DNA of 46,533 bases. It comes from a virus. The position numbers and the translations under genes are program-made. Shown piece after piece: positions 35,488 to 46,533 of the stretch (its first letter is position 1; the number at the start of each line of letters is the position of its first letter). The notes beneath the pieces are model-generated. The model did no database searches. It was not told the DNA's origin and saw nothing but the letters and a program-made list of their open reading frames with translations. The stretch lies in IMG/VR virus record IMGVR_UViG_3300009159_000003, positions 1-46,533 of that record, one strand, 5' to 3'.

Positions 35488-36299
35488 GAAGGTGCGATTT
35501 CGGTGTTGGTTTTTGGTTTAAGTAAGCTGAAGTCGAACGACTGTACGGGTTCCTGCTTGGTGGCCTTGCGATCCCAGCATCGTTCGCGGAAATCGCACAT
35601 CACCTTGCATCGGTAGTCGGACGGGTCGTTATAGGGGCGGGGGATTTCCTCGGGGTCAATGGTAGATACGATAACAGCGACTTTATCGATGTAATCCTGG
35701 CAGTCCCTGGAGTCGAAAGGGATGACCTCTACGTTGAGTTCGGCGGAGTCGCGGTTTAAGCACGTAAACAGGCACGATTCAAGCTTGTGGTAGCCCATAT
35801 AAATCTGGACCTGCGCGTAGTAGATGGGCTTACTTTCCTTGATTCCCTTGTTGACGACGTCCTTAAAAGATGAAACGCCCAGGGCCTTGTTTTCCCACAG
35901 CATCGGGTAGACGAGGCCGGGGATGTCTGGACCGGCTTGGACAACACCGTCAAGGTGGCCCTTAAACTTACCATCGACATCGGAGATGCCGATCTGGCGA
36001 CCGTCGGGGGTGTGAGTCTGGAGTTCGAAGCCGGCGAGACGGAGATACTCCGCTACGCGAGACTCGCCATCGTGGCCCATATCAAACATACGCAGGGTGT
36101 TGCCCTTGAAGTCAGCACCTGGGTCCTTCTCCGTCATATGGTATTCGTAAGCAAGCTTACGCGAACAACCCTCCCCAATGCGGGATGCGCCAAGGTACTT
36201 TCGTTTCGGCTGCTCCTTATTCTTCGCCTGCATAGCCTTGTCGATAAGTTCGACGACGGCATCGTGCGTTGGGTTTTTGATCTCGGGTTTGAATTTCAT
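35469..36299 (-). CDS. Cas4/RecB-like PD-(D/E)XK exonuclease with Fe-S cysteines (276 aa)
   Basis: Motifs appear in order: MGHDGE (74-79), FKGHLDG (112-118; D117), WENKAL (135-140; E136 and K138), and YYAQVQIYM (160-168), the core of PD-(D/E)XK nucleases. Cysteines 45, 231, 235 and 241 have the one-then-three layout of Fe-S Cas4/AddB nucleases. It would resect DNA ends for single-strand annealing with the Sak4/SSB pair in the same operon. The start was set at the ATG at 36299, joined to the helicase stop as TGATG; a longer frame to 36347 runs into the helicase. Confidence 0.85.
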   Translation of the reverse strand: MKFKPEIKNPTHDAVVELIDKAMQAKNKEQPKRKYLGASRIGEGCSRKLAYEYHMTEKDPGADFKGNTLRMFDMGHDGESRVAEYLRLAGFELQTHTPDGRQIGISDVDGKFKGHLDGVVQAGPDIPGLVYPMLWENKALGVSSFKDVVNKGIKESKPIYYAQVQIYMGYHKLESCLFTCLNRDSAELNVEVIPFDSRDCQDYIDKVAVIVSTIDPEEIPRPYNDPSDYRCKVMCDFRERCWDRKATKQEPVQSFDFSLLKPKTNTEIAPSWLPKK

Positions 36300-37972
36300 C
36301 AGATGGAAAGTACCTTGGCTTTTATGGACCGTTCGCGGAACTTCCAAGTAAGAAGGCAGGATGCCTTGTACTTTGTCAGACTCATCGCGGACAGGGGGGT
36401 GAGGCCCAGGATATCAAGTTGCTTGGTAGAGGGGGGTTCGTGGAGCCATCGCTTGGACTTGCGGGCGGCGTCCCTGTCTCCGTGTTCACGGAGGTAGTCG
36501 TCTGCGGAGGCGATAGCCTGGAGGCGATCCGTGGTAACCCCGATTAGCTTGACGGAGGCGGAGTTATCTAGCCCGCCCACAACCCACTCTTTGTCGTCGT
36601 GGCGCACGACTACAGCCCAGGCGGTCATCGCGTTAGCCATCGTGACCATGCCGTCCCAGAAGGACTCCCATCGGAAGGGGGACATCTCAAAAATCTCGAC
36701 CTCCGTAAGGGTGAAGTTGACCAGGTCCTCGCGGTCCTCGGAGGCCTCCTTGATGCGACGCTCGACGCCGTCAAAGATGTGTTCACAGGCTGGGCATATC
36801 GCCAGTTGAGCCGGCACGTCCATCCCGCAGGACGGGCAGATTTTAATAGGCGGTTCGCCAGGTTCAACGGGCTGGAGCTTAACCTCGGTCTCAATGCCAC
36901 CGTGAACAAGTAGTGAATAACCAAAATCTATTACAATGCAGTCGGTCTTAATGACGCCGGGGTACCGCTCGGGGTCAACTTTGCGGAGTCCGCGACCAAT
37001 CATCTGGATCATCGTGGACTTGAAAGAACAGGGGCGTAGGAGGACGACGCACGAAACTGTCTGGCAGTCCCATCCTTCGGTGAGGACGGCGACGTTTACC
37101 AGTACCTGGAAATGGCCGTGTTCGAAGCCGTGTAAAACCTTTCTGCGAGAGTGTTCAGACAGGTTGCCGTGTACGATGTCGGCCTTGACGCCGGCGTCCT
37201 TGAGGGCCTCGGTTACGTGTTCGGCGTGGGCCACGGTAGAGCAGAACAGCACGGTCTTTCTGTCGCCGGCCTTAGCCTTCCATTCTTCGACTACCCGCTC
37301 GGTGACGGCGGACTTGTCCATGATCGCGGCAACCGCATCCATATCAAAGTCGGCAATGGTTCTGCGGACGGAGGCAAGTTCCTGGCGTAGGCCACAATCG
37401 ATGACGAACGCGCGAGGACGCACCAAGTTGCCGGCCTCAATAAGCTCTTTAACGGTGATGACGTCGGAGACATTGGAGAAGACCTCCTTAAGGGCCTTCT
37501 TATCCCCTCGTTGGGGGGTAGCCGTGACGCCCAGTACTTTAAGGTTAGGGTTTAGCTCCCTGGCGCGATCCAAGATAGAGCGGTACGATACGGCGGCGAC
37601 GTGGTGGGCCTCATCGATGACGATAAGGTCCATCCTGGGCATCGTCTCCAGGTTGTCTGGGCGCGAGAGGGTCTGGACCATCGCAAAAGTGGCACCCTCG
37701 GACCAACGCTTGCGATCGGCTGCGTAGATGTCGGAGGGGGTCTCGGGGGCTACCCGTTTAAAGGTGGCCCTGTTCTGGGCTACCAGTTCATCGCGGTGCT
37801 GGATGACAAGTACCCGCATTCCTGGGGTCTTGCTCATCAGTTGGTGAATGGCGGCTGACAGCATGACAGTCTTGCCAGCACCGGTAGGCGCAACGCCTAG
37901 GGTCTCTCCGCATTCGGCGATGGCCCACAGGGCCTTTCGCACGAACTCCTGCTGTCGAGGGCGGAGCTTCAT
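36299..37972 (-). CDS. DEAH superfamily 2 helicase (557 aa)
   Basis: All main motifs are present: Walker A APTGAGKT (28-35), DEAH (120-123), VTATP (about 151-155), a helicase C-domain with VLFCSTVAHAEHVTEAL, LVNVAVLTEGWD and the arginine motif QMIGRGLRK. A four-cysteine zinc finger (CPSCGMDVPAQLAICPAC) follows, then a 120-residue extension. Phage members of this group (UvsW-like) reverse forks, branch-migrate recombination intermediates or unwind R-loops. The leader CCCACTTTTTCT has no Shine-Dalgarno sequence. A structured RNA region lies directly upstream. Confidence 0.9.
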   Translation of the reverse strand: MKLRPRQQEFVRKALWAIAECGETLGVAPTGAGKTVMLSAAIHQLMSKTPGMRVLVIQHRDELVAQNRATFKRVAPETPSDIYAADRKRWSEGATFAMVQTLSRPDNLETMPRMDLIVIDEAHHVAAVSYRSILDRARELNPNLKVLGVTATPQRGDKKALKEVFSNVSDVITVKELIEAGNLVRPRAFVIDCGLRQELASVRRTIADFDMDAVAAIMDKSAVTERVVEEWKAKAGDRKTVLFCSTVAHAEHVTEALKDAGVKADIVHGNLSEHSRRKVLHGFEHGHFQVLVNVAVLTEGWDCQTVSCVVLLRPCSFKSTMIQMIGRGLRKVDPERYPGVIKTDCIVIDFGYSLLVHGGIETEVKLQPVEPGEPPIKICPSCGMDVPAQLAICPACEHIFDGVERRIKEASEDREDLVNFTLTEVEIFEMSPFRWESFWDGMVTMANAMTAWAVVVRHDDKEWVVGGLDNSASVKLIGVTTDRLQAIASADDYLREHGDRDAARKSKRWLHEPPSTKQLDILGLTPLSAMSLTKYKASCLLTWKFRERSIKAKVLSI

Positions 37973-37984
37973 AGAAAAAGTGGG

Positions 37985-38188
37985 GGTGCGGGAGGAGAGG
38001 CGACCCCAACAGCCGCTTCACTCCTGCGTGAATTTAAAGCGGAAGTGTCCAGACCGACGGCTGGTTTAACGCTTTTCACTCGCACCTTGGGTGTTTTAAA
38101 GAGAACAGGCTTACCGGACCTATCAGATATTACAGCGTAGAATGAATAATACGCCAGCAATATCTGGGCTGGGGGTCCGGTAAGCCTG
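37985..38188 (-). ncRNA. Strongly structured non-coding region, candidate RNA element
   Basis: Several nested inverted repeats fill this 204-base gap between the SSB-like stop and the helicase start. The outer stem 38106-38120/38174-38188 is a perfect 15 bp. Inside it 38124-38131/38159-38166 pair over 8 bp and 38135-38139/38150-38154 over 5 bp, giving an 83-base extended hairpin. The second part has a closing helix 37985-37990/38081-38086, a bulged hairpin 38013-38021/38028-38042 and a possible alternative pair CAGCCG (38010-38015)/CGGCTG (38058-38063). In the coding direction it would be the helicase leader. Alternatives are a processing site, attenuator or single-strand origin. Confidence 0.6.
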
Positions 38189-38195
38189 CGAGGGT

Positions 38196-38804
38196 TTAGA
38201 ACGGTCCGTTTCCGGAGGGAGCCTTCGGCCACGCCGGCTTCTGGATCGAAGCGGGAGCGGTGGTCGTGGGCTTAACGCTGAAGGCGTTACCGCGAGCGGT
38301 ATCAATTGCGGCCTGACCGCCGATAAGCTTCTGGTAATCCTTGTAGCCACCGGACGCGGGGTTCGGGGAGAGCCATTCGCCGACCTTGTTCTTGTCAGAA
38401 TAGGCAGGGTCCTTGGACTCCTCGATCTTGACCTTGATGGCGACACGCTGGCCGTCCATACCGTTCATAATTTCGAGCGTGGGCTTGCCTTCGAAGGCGT
38501 TGTACGACTCGGGCTTTGCGGGCGTGAACCAACCGCTCGATTCGAAGATGCGGGCGACGGACGTGATGCCCATCTTGCGCCACTTCTCGCTGTTGCGGTC
38601 GTCCTGGATGTCCGGGACCATGTCGAAGACCTTGCGGCCTTCGTGGTCACCGCCGACGAGAGTCAGCGTCACGGGGTAGTACGTACCGCCGGTGGTGCCG
38701 GACTGGCGCGCGGCCTGGACCGTGAGGATGGCCCAGGAGATGGTGCCGTTGGGGATGAGTTCCGGTGCCGAACTGGCTCCGGAGGTGGGGGAGAACATGC
38801 TCAT
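38196..38804 (-). CDS. DUF669-like single-stranded DNA-binding protein (202 aa)
   Basis: The core YYPVTLTLVGGDHEGRKVFDM (residues 42-62) followed by SEKWRKMGITSVARIFESSG matches the DUF669 pattern, seen in phage proteins that act as ssDNA-binding replication accessories and often lie beside Sak4-type ATPases, as here. Residues 105-130 form a second beta part (TLEIMNGMDGQRVAIKVKIEE). The C-terminus is proline-rich and ends in a short GPF tail, like the disordered tails of SSBs. It lies downstream of the Sak4-like gene with a 30-base gap. Confidence 0.8.
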   Translation of the reverse strand: MSMFSPTSGASSAPELIPNGTISWAILTVQAARQSGTTGGTYYPVTLTLVGGDHEGRKVFDMVPDIQDDRNSEKWRKMGITSVARIFESSGWFTPAKPESYNAFEGKPTLEIMNGMDGQRVAIKVKIEESKDPAYSDKNKVGEWLSPNPASGGYKDYQKLIGGQAAIDTARGNAFSVKPTTTAPASIQKPAWPKAPSGNGPF

Positions 38805-38834: not shown

Positions 38835-39686
38835 TTACTTCTTCTCGGGCATCACGGTGATGACGTTGGAGTCGGTGCGTTTGCCTTCACGGATCTTCTT
38901 AACCAGAGCCTTGAGGTCTGGAGCTTCCAGCACGTCGAGGCGTCCAGAGCGATCCTTGGCGGGGTAGCCCCACGGATTCTGCTGCTGACAGCAGAGGCCA
39001 CGGTACATTACGCCATCCTCTGCCTTGAAGTTCTGAAGGGTGATGACTTGGTCGAAGATACCTGGGAGTTCACGGCCAGTAGCGGCGCCTTCAACCTGGG
39101 GAGACCAAGTGACCCGCTTGAGATCGTCTTCCTCGCGGTTAAGGATGCCGACCATAATGACAGATTTGCTGCAATGCTGGAGGTGGGTGGTCCAGCGCAT
39201 CATCTCCTTCTTAAGGATGCCGTAGGCACCACGCGTGTCGGGCTTGCCAGTCTTCTCGGAGACGGCTTCGGGCTGCTTCTCGGCCCACTTAAAGCACTCG
39301 CGCGAGGCGACGGTGATAGAGTCCACAAAGACCGTATCGTACTTCTTGAGGTCGATGTCCTTGAACGCCTCCTGTACGGCGTCGTAGTTGGGCTTGGAGT
39401 AGGAGCCGACGGAATCGCTCGGGTCGTGACCGCCGATGTAGAGGGCGAGCGCGCGGGCGATCTCCCACGGGTAGCGACCGTACTCCTGGGCGGCGGCACG
39501 GACGTCGATGACGTCACCGGGCCAGTCCTGGATGGCGAGGGTTCCGGCCTCCAGGTCCACGAACAGGGTCGTGGCGGGGTCGAGGGTGCGGGCGAGAGTC
39601 GTCTTGCCCACTCCGGACGGGCCGAAGATGAGCATGTTGACTTTTGGTGCGGCCTTGAGGCGGTCGCTTGCCTTGATGATTTTCAT
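38835..39686 (-). CDS. Sak4-like RecA-fold ATPase (283 aa)
   Basis: Walker A FGPSGVGKT (21-29) and Walker B KYDTVFVD (115-122) followed by SITVASRE identify the AAA_24/Sak4 group of short RecA-like recombinases. VIMVGILNREEDD and the later RELPGIFDQVITLQN are further typical strands. Sak4 proteins work with a cognate SSB to anneal or pair strands in phage recombination, and the SSB-like gene is next door. The C-terminus is basic and ends MPEKK. The leader CAACCCAACAACCGC precedes the ATG, one of the clearest CCCAAC leaders on this strand. Confidence 0.87.
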   Translation of the reverse strand: MKIIKASDRLKAAPKVNMLIFGPSGVGKTTLARTLDPATTLFVDLEAGTLAIQDWPGDVIDVRAAAQEYGRYPWEIARALALYIGGHDPSDSVGSYSKPNYDAVQEAFKDIDLKKYDTVFVDSITVASRECFKWAEKQPEAVSEKTGKPDTRGAYGILKKEMMRWTTHLQHCSKSVIMVGILNREEDDLKRVTWSPQVEGAATGRELPGIFDQVITLQNFKAEDGVMYRGLCCQQQNPWGYPAKDRSGRLDVLEAPDLKALVKKIREGKRTDSNVITVMPEKK

Positions 39687-39706
39687 GCGGTTGTTGGGTT
39701 GTGAGA

Positions 39707-40165
39707 TTAGGCGGAGAAGATGATCTTGGCTTCGGAGTACTTAACCGTGCGGGCCTCGATGAGTTCATCGATAAGCTTCTGGTCGGTAATGGTCTTGAAC
39801 GTCTTCTCGGGTACCGAGAAATCGATCTTGAAGATGCGACGCATCATCTCGGGGGGCATCGTGGTCGCGATGCGCTCCAGGGTAGGCGAGTCCCACTTGA
39901 CGGTGGACTTGATTTCGCCGGTGAACTTGAAGCCATCGTGTTCGAACGTGTGCTGGCCGGACTGCTTGTCCTGCTTGGACAATGCGTCGATCAAGACGGG
40001 TTCGAAACGACGACGGATTTCATCGTTGAGTTCACCAAGCCTGGACTTGGATCCCTCGATGTTGGTTTCGTGCATCGAGATGTAACCCTGGATTTCTCCG
40101 AGGGACATTTCGACGACGGGGCGGGGTCCCTCAACGAGGGACGACTTTGCTTTTTTGTTTTTCAT
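39707..40165 (-). CDS. Conserved phage protein, DUF7173-like (152 aa)
   Basis: The second half (KSTVKWDSPTLERIATTMPP, FKIDFSVPEKTF, LIDELIEARTVKYSEAKI) is a pattern I know from many siphovirus and podovirus early operons, where it lies near SSB or recombination genes and is annotated as unknown, recently as DUF7173. The N-terminal half contains a coiled-coil-like helix (EIQGYISMHETNIEGSKSRL). It overlaps the helix-turn-helix gene by 35 bases. A role in recombination is inferred from position. Confidence 0.75.
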   Translation of the reverse strand: MKNKKAKSSLVEGPRPVVEMSLGEIQGYISMHETNIEGSKSRLGELNDEIRRRFEPVLIDALSKQDKQSGQHTFEHDGFKFTGEIKSTVKWDSPTLERIATTMPPEMMRRIFKIDFSVPEKTFKTITDQKLIDELIEARTVKYSEAKIIFSA

Positions 40166-40424
40166 GTCGGTGGGTGGAAAGGGATTCGCCGGCGTTGGGA
40201 GCCGAGCGGACCATGTAGTCGTTCAAATTGATAGGGTGCTTCTCGTATGTAGCAAGTTCAAGAAGCTCCATAATGCGAGCGGACGGGACGCTGTTACGCT
40301 CGCCCCATTTCTCGATCGTCTTAACCGAGAGTTCGTAACCCCTGGCATTCATTCGACGCCAAAGATCCATGCGACCGCCGAAGCGGGCGACGAGTTTTTT
40401 GATGTCGAGTGTTTGATTCTTCAC
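40131..40424 (-). CDS. Small helix-turn-helix regulator (97 aa)
   Basis: Residues 10-55 form a Cro/CI-like helix-turn-helix: a first helix (KLVARFGGRMDLWRRMNARG), then LSVKTIEKWGERNSVPSARI and a third helix (MELLELATYE). The C-terminal 40 residues are basic and probably disordered. It is the first gene of the early minus-strand operon, starts with GTG behind GGACCCAACGCC, and faces a dyad 30 bases upstream which also occurs before the plus-strand cassette. It probably represses its own operon and that cassette. No integrase was seen, so it need not indicate lysogeny. Confidence 0.75.
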   Translation of the reverse strand: MKNQTLDIKKLVARFGGRMDLWRRMNARGYELSVKTIEKWGERNSVPSARIMELLELATYEKHPINLNDYMVRSAPNAGESLSTHRHEKQKSKVVPR

Positions 40425-42839: not shown

Positions 42840-45800
42840 TTATCGCGACGGTGGCCTTGGCTTTGGGGGCGTACGGGGTTCTGGTACCTGGCTGCTGCCC
42901 CGTTCTTCCTTTTCTCCGGCAAAGAGGTCAGCTACCCCCTTCTCGGTACGGTTATTAGCTATAACTTGGGCGGCAACACCAGCCGCAACTTTAACAGGCA
43001 TCGGGGCCATTTCGGTAGCCAGGGCAAGTCCAGCGTTAGCGGCAGGAACAAGGGCAGATCGATAGCCGATAGAAGCAACTGCCCGCTGGGCGGCATTAGA
43101 GTCTGGGTTATCAATCATCTGGGCGCCAGCAGTCCATGATTTTTTAAGCCAATCCCCTACGACGCCGGCGGGGAGCTGTCCTCTGGAGATGGCTTTCCAT
43201 AGGATTTCAGCAGGTCCAAGCATACCGGTGTATACGAACGCATCAGACAAAGATTGGACCCATGCAGGAACCTTTCCGTCTTTGAACTCAAATCCAGTAA
43301 GTTGGTTAATAATGGTACGAATTCCCCACGTAGCAGCAGTAGCAACGGCGAAGGCTGGACCTACGCCGGCAGCGAGCATGCGCTCGGTAGCGTTATACTT
43401 TCCGCTTCCAACAATCTTACGACTTTGTTCCTGCATGCGTCGTCCATGTTGAGCTGACCACTCATTTGTAAACGTAGAGAACTGGAAGAACATGCGTCCC
43501 AACGGAGTATCATTTGCTGACTCCGTGCGCGAAGATCGTGAAGCCTGGACGGACGACTGTTTGTTGAAGATGATAAGTGCCTGCCGGTATTTAGCGGCCA
43601 TAGGATCACCGCCCATGATGGCTTGGAGTTGCTCGGTTTCATTACCCTTACGCATTTCCTTAACCCATGCGGTAAACTCGTCCATGTTTGCATCCGTTAA
43701 TCCAAGCTCCTTAAGCCTGTCCCTTGCCAGGTTGTCAGCCTTGGCTTCCTTACCAATGGCTCGCGCGATTTTCTGCAGGTTGTGGGTACCTTCAAGCCAC
43801 TTGATATTAGTGTCAATAAAGTCAGCCCCAATACGGAGAGAGATCTCTCTCTTCGCCGCTTCGGTGGCGTGAATGCCGTACATCCTGTAGACACCATCAG
43901 AAGCTTTGTTGAGTTTGCCCTGGTAATCAGAACCGCCATCCAGGTGGTACCCGGACGCAATAGTACCGAACCCGCGATCAATCGTATTGATGCCGAACTC
44001 GATAGCCAAGGCAGACGCAAGATCGTGTCCCTTGCCGTAGATGCGTTCGATTTCATTCCTTGCGTTAGTGGTCTGTTCTGGCGTGAGTCGTCCGACGATG
44101 TTGCCAGTTCGCGCAAACATCTGCCACACGGCCTTTGCGCTATCCGATGCCGATTCAGTACGAAGCCCAATAGAAGCAGCTTCGGTAATATTAAGAAGAC
44201 CTGTCAGCTTAAGGTAGGCTGCGTTTGAAATCAGTTTGGTAAGGTCTAATGCTTTCTGGGTCTCTTCACCCATGCGCTTGCCACCAATACCTAGGTTCGA
44301 TTTGATAAGCTGCTCGATTTCTGCGATGTCTTTTGGGTCTACACCCTGCTTGTCCATCTCGCTCTTGATCTTGCCCCATGCTCCGTTGTCCACTCCGATT
44401 CGTCGGGATACCTCTGCCTTACGCACAAGACCGCCAACATAGTTAATAACGGTGCGTTCGACGTCCTTGTCTCGGTAAGCGTCAAAAAGCAGGGCCTCGT
44501 CCTTGGTGAACTCGCGCTTTTTCTGGAAGCTTTCCTTGGTTCCCTGGCGTGGCTCTTCAAAGATTCCATGCTCAAAGTCCAGGCCTTCACGCCCAAGCAG
44601 GATAGCATCGCGCCAATTGCGGGCCATCAGATCAAAGTCAGGGGTCTCCGCCTCAACGTATTCGGTTCCATTCTTAGCCGCCTCATCTTTTGCCTCCTGC
44701 TTGAGACGTTCGAACTGAACCTCATATGCCTTGGTGGCCGCACGAACAAAGCCGGCCTTGTCTGCGTCTACCGCGTTGGCGTCTACGGATCGAGGGAAGA
44801 ATCCTTCAACCTTTCCAAGTTTCAGACCAGCATCGATACCGTACTTGTGCATTTCTGCCAAAACAATACCGACTTCCTTCATGGCTTCGCCGACACGTCC
44901 TCCTACCTGGCGCGGAGCGCGTCCTTCGACGACTTTGATGAATAGCGAGTTGAACTCCTTTAGTTCAGCCGGCCCCATCTTACGCATGTCTTCCAGAACA
45001 GGGCCAAAAGCCTTGGTAAGTTTGTTGAAGAACACGTTTCGCATGTTTGCTGAATCCGTGTTGTAATCAGGTGCTTCAGTTTCCCTGCCCGGTATAAGCG
45101 AGAAATCGTTGACCACCTTTTGGAGTGCTTCGGACTGCGGATTTAGGTCAGCAATCGTACGCATACGCATAGAAAGCGGCTTGAACCAGGAGACCACCGG
45201 ATGGTCAACCACGCTGCGCCAAACCTTTCCGCCGGCGCTAAGTTCTGGCTTCTCGCCGCGAGCCATAGTGCGGTCATCTTCGCGGGCCTGGTCAATGGCG
45301 TCGCGTTCTTCTGGGGTTAGGCGGGTCTCTGCCTCAACGTCCTTCTTACTGGACATCTTGGGTTCAGAATAGACAGACGGATCTGCGTCTTCTGGCTTAT
45401 ATCGTCCCTTGGCAAAGTTAGCCAGGATACGCTTGGCCTGCTCCTTACCAAATACCTGGGCAAAAGCCGTCTTGATGCTATTCCAAACGCCGGCGATCTT
45501 CTGCTTCCAACCTGGCTGCTCGCCGGTGTAGGCAGGGTCATTGTTGAGCTTTTCACGACACGCTTCCTTAAATGTCTCGGCAAACCATTCGCGCGGGGAG
45601 AATAGACGGTACATCTCGTCCGTAGGACGAACCTCATAATGGGTAATTTCGCCCTTCTTGTTACGTACCGGAGACACGAAGCGATCAAGCGTAGGGAAGT
45701 CAGAAGCCGCCTCGGCATAGGCTTCCTTGGAAATCTTAACCTTTGCCCAGTTGTCAGAGCCTTCGACAAGGCGACCAAATACGCTCCATTTATCCGTGAA

Positions 45801-46533
45801 CTTCTTTCGGGCTGCAAGCCACTCGGCACGTAGTGCTGCGCGGTCTCCCTCTGGCAGGAACTGCTCCAGGTGGTGGCCGACTTCGTGTCCGGCGGTGTCT
45901 TCAAAGCGGCCACTTTGGATGGCTTCCTTAAAGATAGTAACAATACGATTAGCTACGTCGTACTGTCCCTGGTGGCCCGGGCGCCCCTGGCGGATGGACA
46001 TCTTAACGCCGTCAAAGAAATGACTTCCGACGTAGTTAATGATACGGCTAAGGCCTTCGACTTCTTTGTCCGTGATCTCACCGCGAAGGCGGGCTTCAGA
46101 TACGGCACGGTCCATGATCCCGATAAATCCACGGCGACCGCCTTCTTCTTCTTTGCCGGCTTCGCGGTTCTCAGCGTTCTGCTTTACGCGACGGTCAAGC
46201 TCCCTAGCCTTCCGCTCCTCCATGTCGAAAGCGTCGTTAGCGTCGTTGTTCGGATCGCGACGCATGTCCAAGGTGGTCCCTTCGGCCCCCTCTACTTCAG
46301 CTTCCCACAGACTATTATCTTTAAACTGCGACTTTCGTTCATTGGCCTCCTGGGACTTGACGTCCCTGTATTCGCGTTCTGCACGTGCGAGCCTATCGCC
46401 GGCCTGGAAGACTTTTTGCTCTAATCCATTAAGTTCTGCTAGTACTGAGTCGGGATAGAAATTAGACATGTCCGCGTTCGGATCTATGTCTCGTTCATTC
46501 TCTGCTACAAAGTCTTTATCGATCTTTTTAGAA
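42840..46533 (-). CDS. Giant internal virion (polyvalent) protein, C-terminal part
   Basis: Continuation of the frame from 7841 through position 1; residues about 2,573-3,803 are here, the first 41 codons duplicating bases 1-123. A zincin-like motif GHEVGHHLEQF has H2789, E2790 and H2793, followed some 100 residues later by PREWFAETFKEACREKL, a likely part of the same protease-like domain. A hydrophobic helical part follows, then a long helical region of polyvalent-protein type (LTGLLNITEAASIGLRTESA, then EISLRIGADFIDTNIKW). The C-terminus is basic and proline-rich (PPKPRPPSR). Together with the N-terminal GNAT part it looks like a multi-effector protein delivered with DNA. Domain names beyond zincin-like are not claimed. 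Confidence 0.85.
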   Translation of the reverse strand, partial: SKKIDKDFVAENERDIDPNADMSNFYPDSVLAELNGLEQKVFQAGDRLARAEREYRDVKSQEANERKSQFKDNSLWEAEVEGAEGTTLDMRRDPNNDANDAFDMEERKARELDRRVKQNAENREAGKEEEGGRRGFIGIMDRAVSEARLRGEITDKEVEGLSRIINYVGSHFFDGVKMSIRQGRPGHQGQYDVANRIVTIFKEAIQSGRFEDTAGHEVGHHLEQFLPEGDRAALRAEWLAARKKFTDKWSVFGRLVEGSDNWAKVKISKEAYAEAASDFPTLDRFVSPVRNKKGEITHYEVRPTDEMYRLFSPREWFAETFKEACREKLNNDPAYTGEQPGWKQKIAGVWNSIKTAFAQVFGKEQAKRILANFAKGRYKPEDADPSVYSEPKMSSKKDVEAETRLTPEERDAIDQAREDDRTMARGEKPELSAGGKVWRSVVDHPVVSWFKPLSMRMRTIADLNPQSEALQKVVNDFSLIPGRETEAPDYNTDSANMRNVFFNKLTKAFGPVLEDMRKMGPAELKEFNSLFIKVVEGRAPRQVGGRVGEAMKEVGIVLAEMHKYGIDAGLKLGKVEGFFPRSVDANAVDADKAGFVRAATKAYEVQFERLKQEAKDEAAKNGTEYVEAETPDFDLMARNWRDAILLGREGLDFEHGIFEEPRQGTKESFQKKREFTKDEALLFDAYRDKDVERTVINYVGGLVRKAEVSRRIGVDNGAWGKIKSEMDKQGVDPKDIAEIEQLIKSNLGIGGKRMGEETQKALDLTKLISNAAYLKLTGLLNITEAASIGLRTESASDSAKAVWQMFARTGNIVGRLTPEQTTNARNEIERIYGKGHDLASALAIEFGINTIDRGFGTIASGYHLDGGSDYQGKLNKASDGVYRMYGIHATEAAKREISLRIGADFIDTNIKWLEGTHNLQKIARAIGKEAKADNLARDRLKELGLTDANMDEFTAWVKEMRKGNETEQLQAIMGGDPMAAKYRQALIIFNKQSSVQASRSSRTESANDTPLGRMFFQFSTFTNEWSAQHGRRMQEQSRKIVGSGKYNATERMLAAGVGPAFAVATAATWGIRTIINQLTGFEFKDGKVPAWVQSLSDAFVYTGMLGPAEILWKAISRGQLPAGVVGDWLKKSWTAGAQMIDNPDSNAAQRAVASIGYRSALVPAANAGLALATEMAPMPVKVAAGVAAQVIANNRTEKGVADLFAGEKEERGSSQVPEPRTPPKPRPPSR
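46411..46533. repeat. Terminal direct repeat, right copy
   Basis: Identical to bases 1-123. The unique genome length is therefore 46,410 bp. See the left copy for interpretation. Confidence 0.95.

Follow-up and report, generated by a model that had tools for sequence, protein, structure and literature searches.

A conserved three-way-junction RNA in a phage replication operon: a candidate base-pairing regulator of translation initiation

What is the strongly folded stretch of DNA that separates a helicase gene from the gene before it in IMG/VR record IMGVR_UViG_3300009159_000003, and what might it do for the virus that carries it? The window, by which we mean the whole 46,533 nucleotides analyzed, belongs to an uncultured phage, a tailed one as judged by its terminase, portal and major head protein. 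On its minus strand, a 152-aa gene that we call g152 (39707-40165, phrog_2480) and a gene for a Sak4-like recombinase (38835-39686, phrog_124) lie upstream of, and in the same direction as, an SSB-like gene (38196-38804, phrog_2300), so labeled because of its position; the folded stretch follows, and 3' of it lies the gene for an SF2 DNA helicase (36299-37972, minus strand; phrog_16, ResIII and Helicase_C). Named homologues of the helicase exist, all below 40% identity, and our searches found no named phage with the SSB-like protein or with the DNA of this region. Most genes of the window are without Shine-Dalgarno-like sites and have leaders that are either C/A-rich or T-rich. A tRNA search of the window found none, and a 1209-aa protein encoded at 42840-46469 (minus strand) has no match in PHROGs or Pfam.

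A preliminary description of this DNA had reported a single, highly structured non-coding element serving as a leader of the helicase gene, and had offered a new regulatory RNA, a processing site or a single-strand origin as its possible identity. The structure itself is real: its folding energy lies far beyond that of shuffled sequences (z = -4.3 for the plus and -5.3 for the minus strand), none of 200 dinucleotide shuffles being as stable. Both of the domains described are also real, but they constitute two separate modules, and they run, like the genes around them, on the minus strand; the description needs correcting on these two points. The first module, E1, is an RNA of about 104 nt (37983-38086, minus strand) which alignment and pair counts resolve into a three-way junction; its closing helix P1, formed by 38081-38086 (5' strand) and 37985-37990 (3' strand), is exactly as had been stated, with an arm of bulged hairpins inside it, and the remaining helices are P2, with an apical hairpin P2b, and P3/P3b. 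The second, H1 (38104-38189, minus strand), is a long nested hairpin right behind the SSB-like gene with an outer stem of 16 bp, in which the perfect 15-bp stem previously noted was found at 38106-38120/38174-38188, with two inner stems nested inside it.

If these stems matter as base pairs, homologues should keep them by compensatory changes, and this they do. Protein searches collected 80 relatives of the helicase and 52 of the SSB-like protein, and the pair count for E1 was based on 31 distinct homologous sequences and 24 pairs in five helices. Standard pairs occupied 98.1% of the cells, 21 of the 24 pairs were changed on both sides, and double changes filled 164 cells; shuffled controls were 75% paired and controls in which the partner was slid by 1-3 columns 45-49% paired, and the true value was approached neither by any of 500 shuffles nor by a slid control. 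P1 was paired in 100% of its cells, with double changes at four of its five pairs. H1 likewise passed this check. The window's own copy matches the resulting covariance model with 98.3 bits (E 8e-21). The E1 structure is well supported by sequence comparison. The alternative pairing proposed earlier does appear as the minimum-free-energy fold of a few homologues, but covariation favors the three-way junction. A short pseudoknot joining loops 1 and 2, checked by eye, was unsupported. Departures in the paired columns of E1 were G-U or U-G in about 31 cells vs A-C or C-A in 2, and therefore the RNA corresponds to the minus strand, as do the mRNAs. This tolerance of G-U pairs, together with loops complementary to mRNA leaders (see below), points to an RNA and speaks against the single-strand origin.

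Does E1 belong to a class that has already been described? Neither the window nor any of 18 relatives matched an Rfam 15 family at its gathering score; under permissive settings the best match was Magnesium-II, with 20.7 vs a threshold of 40, and we rejected it. A protein-coding gene was rejected too: E1 has no conserved reading frame and its conservation follows base pairs, and the lengths of the gap between the two genes differ among homologues by non-multiples of three, which indicates that no conserved protein is encoded there. A consensus scan of the element found neither a sigma-70 promoter nor an intrinsic terminator. With compensatory changes, no Rfam family and no conserved protein, the proposal of a new regulatory RNA is supported, and the earlier interpretation as a whole stands in part.

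In H1, compensatory changes were seen at 4 pairs among 5 sequences, with one more in a second group of relatives; apart from these, its sequence is unalignable between groups. No intrinsic terminator, that is, a G/C-rich hairpin with a direct T-run, was found for H1 on either strand, its tail reading UUCUCUUU. Since some relatives (L006) read TTCTTTTTTT at this place, weak termination at H1 would be possible in them, and a role in processing is possible as well. In four relatives (L007, L023, L034 and L109) the SSB-like gene is followed by about 200 nt resembling a small conserved ORF (..LLNTR..DAIVADIF..LVSIS..), which replaces H1, retains the apical hairpin and stops just short of E1.

The place of E1 is fixed. 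The gap between the SSB-like and helicase genes of all close relatives contains H1 (or the small ORF instead) and then E1, and a DNA pattern for the E1 core matched 47 viral contigs, in all of which E1 adjoins the helicase gene; nine bacterial contigs also matched, in unrelated contexts and in a number close to chance expectation, and were discarded. A second DNA pattern led to deeper relatives, some of which have lost the P3 arm; these keep the core hairpin UGGCGUCGGUUCCANUCC, for which the pattern itself selects. The covariance model finds a single E1 per phage record, always in the order SSB-E1-helicase, the one second, partial match lying at the far end of a record that itself ends within the element, and no convincing copy was found elsewhere in the same phage genomes or in bacterial genomes.

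Behind E1 the gap is modular. Many relatives carry extra folded modules of 60-330 nt between E1 and the helicase gene, among them two recurrent ones, A and B, variable in order and presence and each with a U-rich tail; the gap hosts modules A, B and C and a tRNA-Met. Module A contains ACUACAACGGCUCCCC and then CCGAAAGG, module B GGCCCUCU and then AUGGUUUCUCUCGG, and they were seen in L004, L010, L012, L025, L035, L110, L111 and L115; the pattern used for module A is too loose, its matches being mostly chance. The tRNA-Met(CAT) gene occupies the E1-helicase interval of one phage record (found as both L109:3924-3996 and L150:2448-2520). A and B also stand in tandem beside unrelated genes in other phages (L192-L213, B module), with a tRNA-Arg between them in L202; together they are a mobile phage RNA cassette. 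Downstream of E1, L110, L111 and L023 have another long structured segment of about 150 nt (..GCGGGCCUGCU..CCGUAGGCCGCCGCCGUUCCC..) that has no match in Rfam, and three more distant relatives (L125, L128 and L130) hold in the SSB-helicase gap a folded RNA of another, unrelated kind. This variety identifies the gap as a site for RNA genes, in which E1 need not adjoin the start of the helicase gene.

The last point bears on one reading of the locus, in which E1 serves the helicase mRNA as a leader in cis, a riboswitch or autoregulatory RNA, and any complementarity to other genes is secondary. The position is indeed right, as E1 without exception lies ahead of the helicase gene and points the same way, short forms place its end 10-25 nt ahead of the helicase ATG, and in two clades the helicase start reads ACCGACATG, which can pair with loop 1. 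A leader of this kind would be expected at a fixed, close spacing, however, and the distance varies between about 11 nt and over 300 nt, with RNA modules and once a tRNA gene intervening in many relatives. Moreover, none of 32 helicase leaders in the main clades, to which the window belongs, contains a loop complement, and complementarity to the helicase start shows no excess there over other genes, while control genes did show an excess. We therefore regard this reading as unlikely.

Where, then, do the loops of E1 find partners? Loop 1 (CGUCGGU, 38053-38059, minus strand) is invariant in 31 of 31 aligned homologues and is complementary to ACCGAC motifs before start codons; loop 2 (38005-38011, minus strand), the apical loop of P3b, reads UGUUGGG in the main clades and is the complement of CCCAACA. 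In the window, ACCGAC stands directly before the ATG of g152 (40166-40171, minus strand), where it would form a 6-bp duplex of -10.0 kcal/mol with the GUCGGU of loop 1, and CCCAACA, the exact complement of loop 2, lies in the Sak4-like gene's leader (39692-39698, minus strand; 7 bp, -11.9 kcal/mol). The two genes are accordingly our proposed targets of loop 1 and loop 2, respectively. In most E1 phages ACCGAC stays directly against the start of g152 even as its flanks and the reading frame upstream of it shift (ACCGACATG, ACCGACAATG, ACCGACCATG), and relatives richer in A/T (43-49% GC) keep both ACCGAC before g152 and CCCAACA or CCCAACC in the Sak4 leader amid A/T-rich flanks.

Loops and leaders also change together. 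Among distinct Sak4 leaders, CCCAAC occurs in 28 of 31 from phages with the loop UGUUGGG vs 3 of 16 from phages with other loops, and ACCGAC in 0 of 31 vs 12 of 16, i.e. CCCAAC gives way to ACCGAC where loop 2 is altered or lost; one motif or the other is found in 41 of 47 leaders from phages with E1 vs 0 of 30 from E1-less relatives. Phages of the clade with CCGUUGGU as loop 2 have ACCAAC before g152. The corresponding Fisher values (down to 9e-16) overstate the significance and are descriptive only, because the sequences are related and independent switches are few. Mapped on a tree of the helicase, loop 2 changes five times and the Sak4 motif likewise five times, in matching places; with shuffled motif labels about 36 are needed.

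The same motifs stand out across whole genomes. Weighted by protein family, CCCAAC, the exact complement of GUUGGG in loop 2, is the most over-represented 6-mer at positions -20 to -1 (18.3 protein clusters vs 0.9 expected). Of the four UGUUGGG clades, three have it at the top of their list and one has it in second place. In the P3-less clade CCCAAC is absent and the top 6-mers are AACCGA and ACCGAC, complementary to loop 1 (GUCGGUU); this motif occurs at -20 to -1 in 6.3 of 49 clusters and in none at +30 to +50 or -40 to -21. The clade with the loop CUUGGUUGG is enriched for CCAACC and AACCAA, and the E1-less comparison phage G020 has none of these enrichments. The motifs lie on the sense strand, mostly 0-12 nt from the ATG, and are scarcer upstream and inside genes. 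C/A-rich 6-mers are generally enriched before starts, and part of the main-clade signal therefore comes from composition: among 35 arrangements of its letters the true loop comes second there, with one of the 34 others equaling UGUUGGG and several coming near, and in the P3-less clade 1 of 139 other arrangements equals the true loop. Complements of loop 1 show no significant genome-wide enrichment in the main clades. Only some 5-20% of genes carry a motif, and the pairing is only 6-7 bp long; furthermore, the hypothesis arose from part of the same data, and some leaders of deep clades had been glimpsed before the test.

Two further readings have to be weighed against these patterns. It could be argued that E1 is a stable structural or counter-defense RNA of a cassette of non-coding RNA and tRNA genes, that its loops bind a protein, and that the complementarity is a by-product of leaders rich in C and A. 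The general enrichment of C/A-rich 6-mers, the gap's being a hot spot for modules A, B and C and tRNA-Met, and the pairing of A and B with tRNA-Arg in other phages would all agree with this; yet it predicts neither the clade-matched switching of loops and leaders nor the absence of the motifs from E1-less relatives, and we consider it very improbable. Alternatively, E1 could be an activator which acts as a surrogate for Shine-Dalgarno recognition and recruits ribosomes to mRNAs devoid of such sites. The fraction of gene starts with Shine-Dalgarno-like sites is only 0.04-0.24 across all E1 clades, in line with what we saw in the window, and no 6-mer is commoner upstream than the motif, which lies close to the ATG. 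However, the gap between motif and AUG is often just 0-4, and a duplex at that distance would collide with the ribosome; a motif is missing from most genes; and the fraction is also low (0.07) in G020, which has no E1, and thus loss of these sites does not require E1. Activation of this kind therefore strikes us as distinctly unlikely.

Judging from sequence, pairing between the loops and the leaders is likely, and on balance we think it probable, though by no means assured, that E1 is a base-pairing riboregulator that blocks initiation of phage translation, similar to RegA but made of RNA. It presents conserved, apparently accessible stretches complementary to initiation regions of candidate target mRNAs, as a base-pairing sRNA would, and its predicted sites overlap or abut the AUG of several phage genes, as those of a RegA-like regulator would. 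E1 would be transcribed from the minus strand within, or processed from, an operon running from g152 through sak4, ssb and H1-E1 to the helicase gene, and its rigid three-way junction would expose two short G/U-rich loops, each forming 6-7 bp with a C/A-rich motif that lies at the start codon of one of the phage's own mRNAs or shortly before it. Loop 1 would target ACCGAC in g152 and, in some clades, also in sak4 and the helicase gene, and loop 2 would target CCCAAC in sak4 and many other genes. Since a duplex so near the AUG should block 30S binding, repression or timing of the translation of early and replication genes would be the most likely outcome; pairing in the cell, action in trans and repression are what we infer here. 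A bolder version, in which E1 is a trans-acting "anti-leader" guide whose two loops set a private initiation code for genes without Shine-Dalgarno sites, loops and leaders co-evolving by clade, is conceivable but rather doubtful.

Taken together, these observations suggest that viral protein synthesis may be regulated here by an RNA, E1, of a kind not described before. If so, one small structured RNA, and not a protein of the RegA type, would control the translation of many phage genes, and it would do so in genomes largely without Shine-Dalgarno sites. Because loops and leaders match clade by clade, compensatory mutations can test the idea directly, and a search for loops that could pair with over-represented motifs in leaders offers a route to other RNA regulons in uncultured phages.

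How does such an RNA compare with systems already known? RNAs C and D of T4 are small stable phage RNAs inside a tRNA cluster; E1 resembles them as a small phage RNA that may keep company with tRNA genes and differs in sitting in a replication operon, and we know of no sequence or structural relation between them. RNAIII of Staphylococcus aureus and other sRNAs use conserved UCCC or C-rich hairpin loops to pair with the ribosome-binding regions of several mRNAs, and E1, too, is a structured RNA that presents conserved hairpin loops towards start regions, as far as its pairing can be predicted; however, while a C-rich loop of the RNAIII type pairs with G-rich Shine-Dalgarno sequences, the G/U-rich loops of E1 would target the phage's own C/A-rich leaders, which lack them.

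Several phage RNAs regulate mRNAs through base pairing, among them P22 sar, which blocks initiation of ant translation, lambda OOP, VpdS of VP882 and lambda PreS (PMC12197685). They differ from E1 in that sar and OOP are long RNAs acting as antisense in cis, whereas VpdS and PreS depend on Hfq (PMC12197685); in none of the four does a covarying three-way junction carry loops that match a genome-wide leader motif, as it does in E1. The functional parallel that we propose is a protein. RegA of T4, a translational repressor of 122 aa, recognizes A/U-rich sites that overlap or lie immediately 5' of the AUG in about 30 T4 mRNAs and competes there with the ribosome (PMC3014915). Like RegA, E1 is encoded by the phage in a cluster of replication genes and is predicted to act on the start regions of the phage's own mRNAs; unlike RegA, it is an RNA, and it would pair with C/A-rich sites.
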